NCBI GenBank assembly: GCA_030148915.1
Contig: JASBSN010000095.1
Coordinates: 1 to 45,298, forward strand
Origin: Thiogranum sp.
Lineage (GTDB): Bacteria; Pseudomonadota; Gammaproteobacteria; DSM-19610
DNA length: 45,298 nucleotides
Reading direction: 5' to 3'
How positions within the stretch are numbered: the stretch's first letter is position 1; every line of letters begins with the position of its first letter. The notes below the pieces were generated by a model. That model searched no databases, had not been told where the DNA came from, and saw nothing but the letters and a program-made list of their open reading frames with translations. Positions 2,077-5,682 of this stretch are shown here, in pieces. The position numbers and the translations under genes were made by a program.

Positions 2077-2958
2077 ATGCTGGGCTCCAATCACCGATTG
2101 CTGCCGATTATCAGCCTGCTGCTGGCCGCCACGCTATGGGGCCTGGTGTGGTATCCGTTGCGGTTGCTCGACGAGCAGGGCATCGGCGGACTGTGGGCCT
2201 CTCTGGTCAGCTACACCGCCGCGCTGATGCTGGGCAGTGTCTGGCTATGGCGCAGCGGCCGCGCCTGGCGTAACAACGGCGCGCTGATGGCCCTGATGGC
2301 CATCGCTGTGGGCTGGTGCAACGTCTCGTTCGTGCTGGCGGTCATCGATGGCAATGTGGTGCGGGTGTTGCTGCTGTTTTACCTGTCGCCATTGTGGGCG
2401 CTCATCCTCGGCTGGCTATTGCTCGGCGAGCACCCGGGGCGACAGGGGCTGGCGGTGTTCGCACTGGCGGTGGGCGGCGGCGTGACCATGCTCTGGGATC
2501 CGCAGATCGGACTGCCCTGGCCGCGTGATCAGGCCGACTGGCTGGCGGTGTCCTCGGGTCTGAGCTTCGCTTTTTCCAATGTGCTGGTGCGTAAGCTGCA
2601 CGCTGTCACGGTACGCGACAAAGCCGCCGCCGACTGGCTGGGCGTGGCAATGGTGGCTGCGGTCTGGATTGTGCTCTCCGGTGAGCCTCTGCCGCAGGCA
2701 CAGGGGACGGTGTGGCTGGGCGCGGTGATGTTGGGTTGGCTGGGTTTCAGCATTATGACCGTCAGCGTGATCTATGGCGTGACGCACATGCCGGTGCACC
2801 GCTCGGCGGTGATTCTACTGTTCGAACTGGTGGTCGGGAGCGTTTCGGCCTTGCTGCTGACCGATGAACAGGTTATGGCGCGTGAATGGCTCGGCGGGGC
2901 ACTGATCGTGTTGGCCGGCTATCTGGCCGCGCATGCCCAGGTGAGAAACACGTCATGA
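2077..2958 (+). CDS. EamA/DMT-superfamily inner-membrane permease
   Basis: A 293-residue very hydrophobic protein with about ten transmembrane segments arranged as two EamA repeats (roughly residues 9-137 and 150-286). Conserved-looking pieces are TLWGLVWYPLRLLDEQG in TM1 and FYLSPLWALILGWLLLGEHP at the end of the first repeat, both typical of drug/metabolite exporters. The substrate cannot be told from sequence; relatives export amino acids or metabolites, and the adjacent dap genes make an amino-acid-related substrate possible but unproven. The ATG at 2077 has only a weak GGAAA upstream. Its stop overlaps the start of the next gene (ATGA at 2955-2958), so the two are translationally coupled. 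Confidence 0.85.
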   Translation: MLGSNHRLLPIISLLLAATLWGLVWYPLRLLDEQGIGGLWASLVSYTAALMLGSVWLWRSGRAWRNNGALMALMAIAVGWCNVSFVLAVIDGNVVRVLLLFYLSPLWALILGWLLLGEHPGRQGLAVFALAVGGGVTMLWDPQIGLPWPRDQADWLAVSSGLSFAFSNVLVRKLHAVTVRDKAAADWLGVAMVAAVWIVLSGEPLPQAQGTVWLGAVMLGWLGFSIMTVSVIYGVTHMPVHRSAVILLFELVVGSVSALLLTDEQVMAREWLGGALIVLAGYLAAHAQVRNTS

Positions 2959-3341
2959 CCGAGGCGCGGATTCACCATGTCAGCGTGGTGGTCGCCGATC
3001 TCCGCGCCGCCCTGCGCTTTTATGTCGACCTGCTTGGCTTGGAGGTTGACGAGGCGCGCCCGTCGATGGGTTTTGATGGCGCCTGGCTGAAGGTGGGCGG
3101 ACAGCAGGTGCACTTGTTGCAGGTGGACAACCCGGATCCTGTCAGCGGGCGTCCGGCGCACGCCGGGCGTGACCGACACCTGGCCCTGCTGGTGCCGAGG
3201 CTGGAGGGCTGGGTGGCGCGCTTGGAGCAGGCGGGCGTGGCGATCACCCGCAGCCGTTCGGGCCGCAAGGCAGTCTTTGCCCGGGATCCGGACGGCAACG
3301 CGGTGGAACTGATCGAGGCGACCGCGCAGCCGGAGGAGTGA
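2955..3341 (+). CDS. VOC (glyoxalase/bleomycin-resistance fold) protein
   Basis: A 128-residue single-domain vicinal-oxygen-chelate protein. The two beta-alpha-beta-beta-beta modules are visible: IHHVSVVVADLRAALRFYVD at the N-terminus and RHLALLVPRLEGWVARLEQA from about residue 74, ending with FARDPDGNAVELIEA. Candidate metal ligands are His8, His75 and Glu118, which match the usual H/H/E pattern. The family includes lactoylglutathione lyases, dioxygenases and resistance proteins that sequester or modify small molecules; the actual substrate is unknown. The ATG at 2955 overlaps the stop of the EamA gene by four bases, which suggests the permease and this enzyme act together. It is the last plus-strand gene before the hairpin-rich gap. 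Confidence 0.88.
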   Translation: MTEARIHHVSVVVADLRAALRFYVDLLGLEVDEARPSMGFDGAWLKVGGQQVHLLQVDNPDPVSGRPAHAGRDRHLALLVPRLEGWVARLEQAGVAITRSRSGRKAVFARDPDGNAVELIEATAQPEE

Positions 3342-3390
3342 GTCAGACGCTTAGTTCGGCAACCTGTGATTTCGTCATCACCAGGCCCAG

Positions 3391-3471
3391 AGGTTGCGTC
3401 GGGTAGCCCCTCGATGGGGCATGCACCGCTTGCGGTGCCCTAAGCCATCGAGGGGCTACCCGATGCAACCT
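3391..3471 (+). repeat. nested palindromic element A
   Basis: The outer arms 3391-3417 and 3445-3471 are 27-nt inverted complements with one non-Watson-Crick pair (3398 with 3464), which is a G-U wobble on the plus strand. Inside lies an asymmetric internal loop, GGCAT (3418-3422) against CCTAAG (3439-3444). An inner perfect 7-bp stem, GCACCGC (3423-3429) with GCGGTGC (3432-3438), is closed by TT. The core 3415-3446 recurs, in inverted orientation, in element B. It could be a REP-like or MITE-like element, or an RNA structure in the 3' region of the VOC transcript. Confidence 0.85.
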
Positions 3472-3525
3472 CGAATCGGCGCGCCGGAAGTTTCGGCGTT
3501 GCAGCACGATCCGGCCTCGGCGCAA

Positions 3526-3610
3526 GCGTGCTCCGAGCGGTGGCAGGATTTTGGCTTAGGGTGCCGCGAGCGGCACATGCACCAAAAACCTGCCACCGCT
3601 CGGAACACGC
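3526..3610 (-). repeat. nested palindromic element B (same core, inverted)
   Basis: The outer arms 3526-3554 and 3582-3610 are 29-nt inverted complements with two mismatches (3548/3588 and 3531/3605; the latter is a G-U wobble if read on the minus strand). Read on the minus strand the core is TGCAT, stem GTGCCGC, loop TC, stem GCGGCAC, then CCTAAG. This is the architecture of element A, but two neighbouring base pairs of the inner stem are exchanged on both sides. The outer arms have no similarity to those of A. Confidence 0.85.
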
Positions 3611-3651
3611 TTAATATAACACCGCGATTTGATTCGGCACGCTTAGTGATT

Positions 3652-3780
3652 CGTCATGCCGGACTTGTTCAGGCATCCACGCCTCTGATCGCTATCGATG
3701 ACTCGCTTCGCTCGCCCTTTGGGCCGCCCTGCGGGCGTTCAACGCGCCAGCGCTTTTGTCTGGCGTACGCCAGAATGGCG
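3652..3780. repeat. imperfect inverted-repeat block with a 16-bp palindrome
   Basis: It begins CGTCATGCCGG and ends CCAGAATGGCG; the ends are inverted complements at 8 of 11 positions. Inside are a small hairpin ATGCCGGA/TCAGGCAT (one mismatch), the stems GCCC-TTT-GGGC (3714-3724) and CGCCC-TGC-GGGCG (3725-3737), and a perfect 16-bp palindrome TCTGGCGTACGCCAGA (3759-3774). The composition resembles mosaic intergenic repeats scattered through proteobacterial genomes; no transposase is present. Confidence 0.6.
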
Positions 3781-3864
3781 GTTAATGAATTAATCAGATG
3801 TTTCCTGAATATTCACCGGGCCCACCGCCACTGGTTGTTGCCTGGCGGGCTAGGGCGGTGGAGC

Positions 3865-5682
3865 TCAGGGCACAATTTCCACCAAGGTTTCGTCGGGGTT
3901 GACGCTGTCGCCCTTGTCGACGTGGATGGCCTGCACGCGGCCGCTGATGGGCGCCTGGATTTCGGTCTCCATTTTCATCGCTTCGGTCACCAGTACCGGG
4001 TCGCCGGCTTTGACTTCGGCGCCGATTTCCACCAGCACCTCGATCACCGTGCCGGGCATGGAGGTGCTGACATCGCCCGGCGCGGTGGCCTTTGGCCGTT
4101 TGCTGCCGCTGACTTTGACGGCCACTGAGCCGTCGTGGCTGTCATCGAGCTCGGCCAGGGTTTCGATCAGGATCTCCTCCGGTACGCCGTCCACGGTCAT
4201 ATAAAAGGGTCGTTCCTGCTGTGTGTGGTGACCGGTGCCGGTGATCTGGATATGGTGCGTTTCGCCATGCAGGGTGACATTGAACTCGGTGGGTTTGAGC
4301 GTATCGGCGCCGGCGGTGCCGGCCTTTTCCAGCGGCTCGGGCGTGAGCGTACCGGCCGCACGATGACTAAGAAAGTCGCGGCCGAGTTCCGGGAACATGG
4401 CGTAGGTGAGGACATCTTCCTCGCTCTGCGCCAGCTCGCCGATGCTCTCACGCAGTTCTTGCATTTCGTTGCTCAGCAGATCAGCCGGGCGTACATCGAT
4501 GATCTGTTCATTACCGATGGCCTGTTGGCGCACCAGGCTGTTGATTTCGCCCGGCGCCCGACCGTAGCGCCCTTGCAGATACAGCTTCACTTCGTTGCTG
4601 ATGGTTTTGTAGCGCTCCCCGGTCAACACATTCAGGACCGCCTGGGTGCCGACGATCTGCGAGGTCGGCGTGACCAGCGGCGGATAACCGAGGTCCTCGC
4701 GCACGCGCGGAATTTCCAGCAATACGTCTTCGATGCGATTCAGCGCCGCTTGTTCGCGCAACTGCGTGTAGAGGTTGGATATCATGCCGCCCGGTACCTG
4801 ATAGACCTGTACGCGAGTGTCCAGGCCGGTCATGTCGCTCTCGAACTGGTGATATTTTTTGCGTACCTCGCGGAAGTAAAAGCCGATCGCCTGCAGTTTC
4901 TTCAGATCCAGCCCGGTGTCGTATTCAGTGCCGGCCAGTGCGGCGACCATGCTTTCAGTGGGGGGATGGGAGGCTCCGCCGGCAAAGGCGGATATGGCCG
5001 TGTCGATGTGTACGCAACCGTTTTCGATCGCTTTAAGTTGGCACATTTCCGCGGTGCCGGCAGTGGCGTGACTGTGCAGGTGGACGGGAATGTCGACGGC
5101 TTTGACCAGTTTTGCCATCAGCTCGGCGGTGACCGCCGGAGTGAGCAGACCGGCCATGTCTTTCAGCGCGATGCTGTTGCACCCCATGCCGGCGAGCTGA
5201 CGTGCCATGGCAACGAACTGGTCGATGCTGTGTACCGGACTGGTGGTGTAGCAGATGGTGCCCTGGGCGTGCTTGCCGGTCTCAAGGACCGCGGCGATGG
5301 CGGTCTCGAGATTACGTGTGTCATTGAGCGCATCGAAAATGCGAAACACGTCGATGCCGTTGTCGGCGGCTTTGCTCACGAAGGCGCGCACCACCTCGTC
5401 GGAGTAATGGCGGTAGCCGAGCAGGTTCTGCCCGCGTAATAACATTTGCAGGCGGGTGTTCGGTAATGCCTGACGCAACTGCCGCAGACGCTCCCAGGGG
5501 TCTTCCTTAAGGTAGCGCAGACAGGCGTCGAAAGTGGCGCCACCCCAGACTTCCAACGACCAGTAGCCTATTTCGTCAAGTTGTGCGCAAGCCGGCAGCA
5601 TATCCGCGGTGCGCAGCCGGGTGGCGATCAGCGACTGGTGTGCATCGCGCAGTATGACGTCTGTTATGTGAACCCTGGACAT
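3865..5682 (-). CDS. pycB: pyruvate carboxylase subunit B (carboxyltransferase + biotin carrier)
   Basis: A 605-residue protein: the carboxyltransferase TIM barrel begins with ITDVILRDAHQSLIATR, with metal and substrate motifs IALKDMAGLL and HLHSHATAGTAEM; a conserved PYC_OADA domain follows; the biotinyl domain ends the protein with the biotin-lysine motif VTEAMKMETEI. The same architecture is used by the oxaloacetate decarboxylase alpha subunit. A biotin carboxylase gene lies immediately upstream and there is no oadB or oadG sodium-pump gene, so anaplerotic ATP-dependent carboxylation of pyruvate to oxaloacetate is the better reading, as in the Pseudomonas two-subunit enzyme. The ATG at 5682 has AGGA nine bases upstream. 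It follows pycA after 23 bp. A Pro-rich linker is not evident between the domains. Confidence 0.9.
   Translation of the reverse strand: MSRVHITDVILRDAHQSLIATRLRTADMLPACAQLDEIGYWSLEVWGGATFDACLRYLKEDPWERLRQLRQALPNTRLQMLLRGQNLLGYRHYSDEVVRAFVSKAADNGIDVFRIFDALNDTRNLETAIAAVLETGKHAQGTICYTTSPVHSIDQFVAMARQLAGMGCNSIALKDMAGLLTPAVTAELMAKLVKAVDIPVHLHSHATAGTAEMCQLKAIENGCVHIDTAISAFAGGASHPPTESMVAALAGTEYDTGLDLKKLQAIGFYFREVRKKYHQFESDMTGLDTRVQVYQVPGGMISNLYTQLREQAALNRIEDVLLEIPRVREDLGYPPLVTPTSQIVGTQAVLNVLTGERYKTISNEVKLYLQGRYGRAPGEINSLVRQQAIGNEQIIDVRPADLLSNEMQELRESIGELAQSEEDVLTYAMFPELGRDFLSHRAAGTLTPEPLEKAGTAGADTLKPTEFNVTLHGETHHIQITGTGHHTQQERPFYMTVDGVPEEILIETLAELDDSHDGSVAVKVSGSKRPKATAPGDVSTSMPGTVIEVLVEIGAEVKAGDPVLVTEAMKMETEIQAPISGRVQAIHVDKGDSVNPDETLVEIVP

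Follow-up and report, generated by a model that had tools for sequence, protein, structure and literature searches.

Arms that change together: a genus-level family of REP-like intergenic palindromes in Thiogranum, possibly kept matched at the DNA level

Background

What keeps the two arms of a long hairpin complementary when the sequence of those arms differs from one copy to the next? The question is raised by an intergenic space of Thiogranum sp. (assembly GCA_030148915.1, here genome G000) in which two neighbouring hairpins, A and B, carry one common tip. The window analysed is the whole 45,298 nt of contig JASBSN010000095.1 (contig C11 of G000). A first-pass annotation had described A and B as hairpins with a common core, inverted in B, and had offered template switching at the core, or a mobile or protein-recognised module, as possible origins.

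Structure of hairpins A and B

The hairpins lie between two convergent genes, one of the glyoxalase family (positions 2955 to 3341, plus strand), which ends upstream of A and runs in the direction of the core of A, and one for an oxaloacetate decarboxylase or pyruvate carboxylase alpha-like protein (3865 to 5682, minus strand), which runs in the direction of the core of B. Element A, on the plus strand, comprises a left arm (3390 to 3417), a tip or core made of GCATGCACCGC-TT-GCGGTGCCCTAAG plus the preceding base (3418 to 3444; pattern match G000:C11:3419-3444, plus strand) and a right arm (3445 to 3472). Its 28 nt arms form inverted repeat I2, are 96% complementary and belong to the type I arm family; the first base of its tip is G where other copies have T. 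Element B, on the minus strand, comprises the arm lying 3' of the tip in core orientation (3524 to 3554), the tip plus preceding base (3555 to 3581; pattern match G000:C11:3555-3580, minus strand) and the arm lying 5' of the tip (3582 to 3612). Its 31 nt arms form inverted repeat I1, are 94% complementary and belong to the type II family. Between the elements is a weakly conserved linker (3473 to 3523, no strand assigned) that holds inverted remnants of the flank ACCGAAGCC; the consensus hinted at a third stem there, to which co-variation, absent from the linker, gave no support. The outer flank of A (3352 to 3389, plus strand), ending in ccACCAGgCCCA, and that of B (3613 to 3650, minus strand, boundary approximate) are weakly conserved in flank alignments of type I and type II copies, respectively.

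The two cores align in inverted orientation (repeat I3), as first described. Two adjacent core-stem pairs said to be compensated are so, being C-G and A-U in A and U-A and G-C in B, and the outer arms of A and B are unrelated to each other while each is near-perfectly complementary to its own partner. The claim that one imperfect pair in each stem is a wobble in core orientation holds for the G-U of A and for one U-G of B; B also carries a U-U mismatch that had gone unmentioned. In core orientation the minimum free energies are -73.4 (A) and -73.6 kcal/mol (B), with z of -10.7 and -11.8, and 0 of 200 shuffles were as stable as either. Rfam matches in 3000-4200 were all far below gathering scores and fell to hairpin-like microRNA models.

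A second dispersed intergenic repeat, of the kind TCGTCATGCCGGACTTGTTC(C/A)GGCATCCA, is present at 3640-3700 of the window and near units at other loci (L043, L036, L038, L163 and L176); it sometimes forms an inverted repeat of its own.

A dispersed family in the genome

The core was also proposed to be a repeated module, and counting its copies bears this out. The 3.2 Mb of G000 contain 64 places that match the core pattern when up to 2 mismatches are allowed; a third mismatch adds one more place, probably unrelated, and a relaxed signature with a covariance model adds further copies. Since some places are the two ends of one broken contig, the count is put at about 64 distinct hairpins. The same pattern read backwards gave 2 matches, and against this control the copy number excludes chance as the source of the core shared by A and B.

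Each unit carries a tip, GGTGCAT-(short stem)-CCTAAGCC, atop a stem that measures 28 bp in type I and 29 bp in type II, and most copies have arms of 28 or 29. The arms fall into two families: the arm before the tip reads approximately GAGGttCaGCCGGGcagnCCcTCGATGG in type I, to which A belongs, and approximately GCGGGtttcraCCGGtncmaGGTTTTTGG in type II, to which B belongs. The usual layout is one type I unit facing one type II unit, their tips separated by about 130-149 bp, or by more in a few pairs. Chimeric units, which combine a type I arm on one side with a type II arm on the opposite side, occur at L003:1501, L188:1501 and L186:1501, as expected from deletion between two tips. All units are intergenic, none overlapping a called gene. 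Among spaces with both neighbours called by a simple gene finder, 17 of the 30 distinct hairpin spaces are convergent; the background rate, taken over spaces of more than 50 bp, is 12.6%. A perfect 24-bp palindrome, AGCCCGCATTTCTCACCGCCGTTC, lies near a type II unit at L164:2983-3039 (contig C2), with similar letters in L022, and perhaps represents a further hairpin family.

Because many contigs end at hairpins, an assembly or fold-back artefact has to be weighed. One copy near a contig start (L055, contig C37, position 120) has 89-bp arms and is probably an assembly fold-back; it was excluded from the flank and divergence comparisons below and included in the mismatch counts. Most copies, however, lie inside contigs with unique flanks on both sides and arms that differ, and the same architecture is found in other assemblies. 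The internal copies and the other assemblies exclude an artefact as an account of the whole family, and the idea can be given almost no weight.

Relatives and gain of the elements

With the relaxed signature and the covariance model, copies were found in five genomes of the same genus besides G000, namely G001, G004, G005, G011 and G014. The tip stem is 7 bp with a 2-nt loop in G000 and 3-4 bp in relatives; it reads GYGC-TC-GCRC in G001 and GCG-CTCTA-CGC in G004. About ten hairpins were found in G011, most with arms of 28-32 bp and with a different tip, and one in G005. The same layout with other tips and other arms within the genus indicates that the architecture is older than the sequence. 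Consistent with tip stems that differ, a search of other genomes of the genus for the G000 core with up to 2 mismatches returned a single poor match. The exact core pattern gave one match in a collection of 84,980 species (Neoroseomonas alkaliterrae) and none in viral contigs, and a class-wide scan of 274 genomes under stricter filters recovered only G000. The relative G008 (L118-L137), in which no element of the hairpin family was detected, has long palindromes of a different kind, CGTCATTGCGAGCGCAGCG...CAATCT.

Some hairpins of relatives stand at corresponding places. At the clearest such locus G004 and G014 differ by 4 two-sided pair changes and 1 one-sided change, the latter at the arm end; the neighbouring gene there has 90% DNA identity and the flanks about 50-60%. 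Read by eye, the yicC-gmk hairpin of the same two genomes has at least one pair changed on both sides and two changed on a single side, and the copy there accordingly seems to be decaying. Hairpins of unrelated sequence stand downstream of corresponding genes of G000 (L044) and G011 (L234), ahead of sequence resembling a riboswitch leader. The oadA locus had no common synteny in relatives for comparison.

Gain of the I-II pair in the G000 lineage is observed at two operon sites. The hscB-hscA space measures from a few to about 60 nt in most relatives and about 320 nt, with an added I-II pair, in G000. A similar gain is found between hisF and hisI, although in some relatives that space contains unrelated sequence of as much as about 200 nt. 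These comparisons speak to the gain and not to its mechanism.

The same two sites bear on the possibility that the hairpins are long intrinsic transcription terminators. Units follow stop codons, mostly between convergent genes, as terminators would. However, new pairs have appeared inside the hscB-hscA and hisF-hisI spaces, a fixed tip and arm length repeated over 60 loci is not a feature of terminators, and no terminator-like site was found in 3330-3870 of the window, where no T run follows the stem. An intrinsic terminator was rejected for want of that T run, and the terminator explanation is very unlikely for the family.

Relationship to REP elements and the RAYT gene

The closest known kind is the GTAG-tagged REP dimer (REPIN/BIME type; PMC3733652). 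Common to both are a small palindromic tip with a 2-nt loop and alternative complementary residues in its stem, facing dimers that are often made of two different units, and an intergenic, often convergent location in families limited to a species or genus. The high copy number, intergenic placement and facing dimers typical of REPs are all present here (about 64 copies, mostly I-II pairs). The differences are in the tag, the stem, the arms and the transposase. Most tips end in CCTAAG, which is CTTAG and not GTAG on the other strand; a few end in CCTACG, that is, C-GTAG-G. The unpaired GTAG at the end of the stem-loop that marks the superfamily is thus lacking in most copies, and published REP families tolerate some tag degeneration (PMC3733652). 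Published stems are 6-13 bp (PMC3733652), a range that the tip alone fits with its 7 bp in G000; the whole unit, with its extra stem of 28-29 bp, does not. The arms moreover diverge strongly and stay matched, and no RAYT link was found. On the tag, the RAYT link and the stem length, the family is best described as REP-like and not as a member of the superfamily.

A linked RAYT/IS200-type gene had been named as potentially informative by the first-pass annotation, and no such link was found. The sole full-length IS200-like (RAYT-like) gene of G000 (L057) has no core or hairpin nearby. That gene, at L057:1110-1960, has copies of another repeat, (TATTC)GGGGTCAGAGTAAAA, on its flanks. No Y1_Tnp match was obtained in G004, G011 or G014, all of which carry elements (three of these genomes are 86-95% complete, so that a gene could be missed), and several Y1_Tnp-bearing genomes have no elements by covariance model; presence of Y1_Tnp therefore does not track the elements. 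If the units were ordinary REP dimers of the GTAG type, mobilised by a RAYT (REP-associated tyrosine transposase) and unremarkable in their arms, this would account for the size of the tip, its 2-nt loop, the facing dimers, the convergent bias and the few C-GTAG-G tips. Against the CTTAG tag of most copies and this distribution of Y1_Tnp genes, that reading is improbable.

Two hairpins forming one dispersed unit are also seen in the double-hairpin elements of mitochondrial DNA. These are mitochondrial, and we know of no sequence relation between them and the units of G000.

Co-variation of the arms

Arm statistics were drawn from 24 type I and 32 type II units. Within a copy, 3.3% (type I) and 3.2% (type II) of arm pairs are mismatched, whereas the same arm differs by 30-32% between copies. 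Relative to the commonest pair, arm cells show 283 two-sided changes to another Watson-Crick pair and 34 one-sided changes. In a 37-sequence alignment 97.6% of cells are paired, vs 72.5% with shuffled partners and at most 45.8% with slid partners. The check proposed at the outset, whether arms vary from copy to copy yet stay complementary, thus came out in favour. Copies differ from one another by 1-3% in the fixed letters of the tip, GCAT..CCTAAG, with TGCAT/CCTAAG conserved across them; in the arms they differ by about 32% and in the flanks by 38-72% (38-55% in the nearest 14 nt, about 70% further out without gaps). Conservation accordingly falls in the order tip, arm pairing, arm sequence, flanks.

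Two explanations of this pattern carry most of the weight. Selection on pairing alone would fix compensatory mutations one after the other with no copying between arms, acting on RNA at transcript 3' ends (stability, processing) or on DNA, as a single-stranded hairpin or a cruciform that a protein binds. Alternatively, the arms may be homogenised in place at the DNA level and the tip held by selection. The number of one-sided differences stays near one for any two copies, however far their flanks have diverged, and this near-constant count allows both.

G-U makes up 1.2% of arm pairs; in the variable part of the tip stem of these molecules, its first three pairs, the share is 8.5% (Fisher p 2e-7, nominal only as the copies are related), and non-wobble mismatches (25) are about as common as G-U plus A-C (24). 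Both observations favour DNA-level arm copying and tell against selection on pairing. So do the five clear copies in which the tip stands inverted between its own flanks, which also explain most of the odd pair geometries and show that inverted-repeat events do occur at the DNA level. In the other direction, G-U exceeds A-C in core orientation (18:6 in arms, 16:4 in the core, 34:10 in total), which fits selection on a single strand. Fixed arm length, convergent 3' positions and counterparts that stay at the same places in related species though their sequence changes likewise favour selection on pairing. On this evidence selection on pairing alone is a real possibility, if somewhat less than probable.

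DNA-level homogenisation of REP-like intergenic palindromes within the genus, with selection on the tip, is preferred at roughly even odds (about 0.5), judging from sequence comparison. The unit is a conserved tip, in which an asymmetric internal loop, TGCAT / CCTAAG, encloses a small stem, on a long stem of near-fixed length; the two arm types form a facing heterodimer that has spread in the lineage, mainly to the 3' sides of genes. After insertion, the arms of one copy may be held identical by template switching in replication or by mismatch repair inside an extruded hairpin, so that a mutation in one arm would become a matched pair change, and the tip may be held by selection as the part recognised by a protein or by an RNA-level process. 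Arms fixed at 28 or 29 are not what free outward template switching would produce, a difficulty for this reading; mismatch repair within the hairpin would respect that length. A search for RAYT-type genes found no mobilising enzyme; a transposase of some other kind may be involved. From their position, the hairpins may at present protect or mark transcript 3' ends, as proposed for REPs.

Template switching between inverted repeats is described as leading to arm homogenisation and spacer inversion (PMC8604942), and compensatory changes in RNA stems have been proposed to originate from it (PMC8794818). In such quasipalindromes (PMC8604942, PMC8794818, PMC7202029) the arms converge to identity, the spacer can invert and compensatory changes arise jointly, outcomes that the sequences of the present units resemble. 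They differ in being single sites, genes or reporter constructs; here the process would operate on some 60 dispersed units that have a conserved tip and arms of set length, with its outcomes read from sequences. The original suggestion of template switching at the core thus survives in part: core inversion and low-G-U matching of arms fit it, but the idea of arms as unrelated or newly made palindromes found no support, since they fall into families I and II and similar arms occur in related species.

Significance

Some 60 paralogous hairpins and a few counterparts at the same places, with heavy co-variation, few one-sided states, scant arm wobble and flipped tips, offer a bacterial measure of how far compensatory change comes from selection or from arm-to-arm copying. 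REP-like repeats also gain a long-armed form whose tips vary from one species to another within a genus.

Co-variation is standard evidence for functional RNA structure. The furthest-reaching form of the homogenisation reading is that the arms evolve in concert by DNA self-copying, with selection on the tip only; on the comparisons made here this is rather unlikely. If it is true, co-variation close to perfect, the pattern commonly read as demonstrating a selected RNA structure, would arise without selection on arm pairing.
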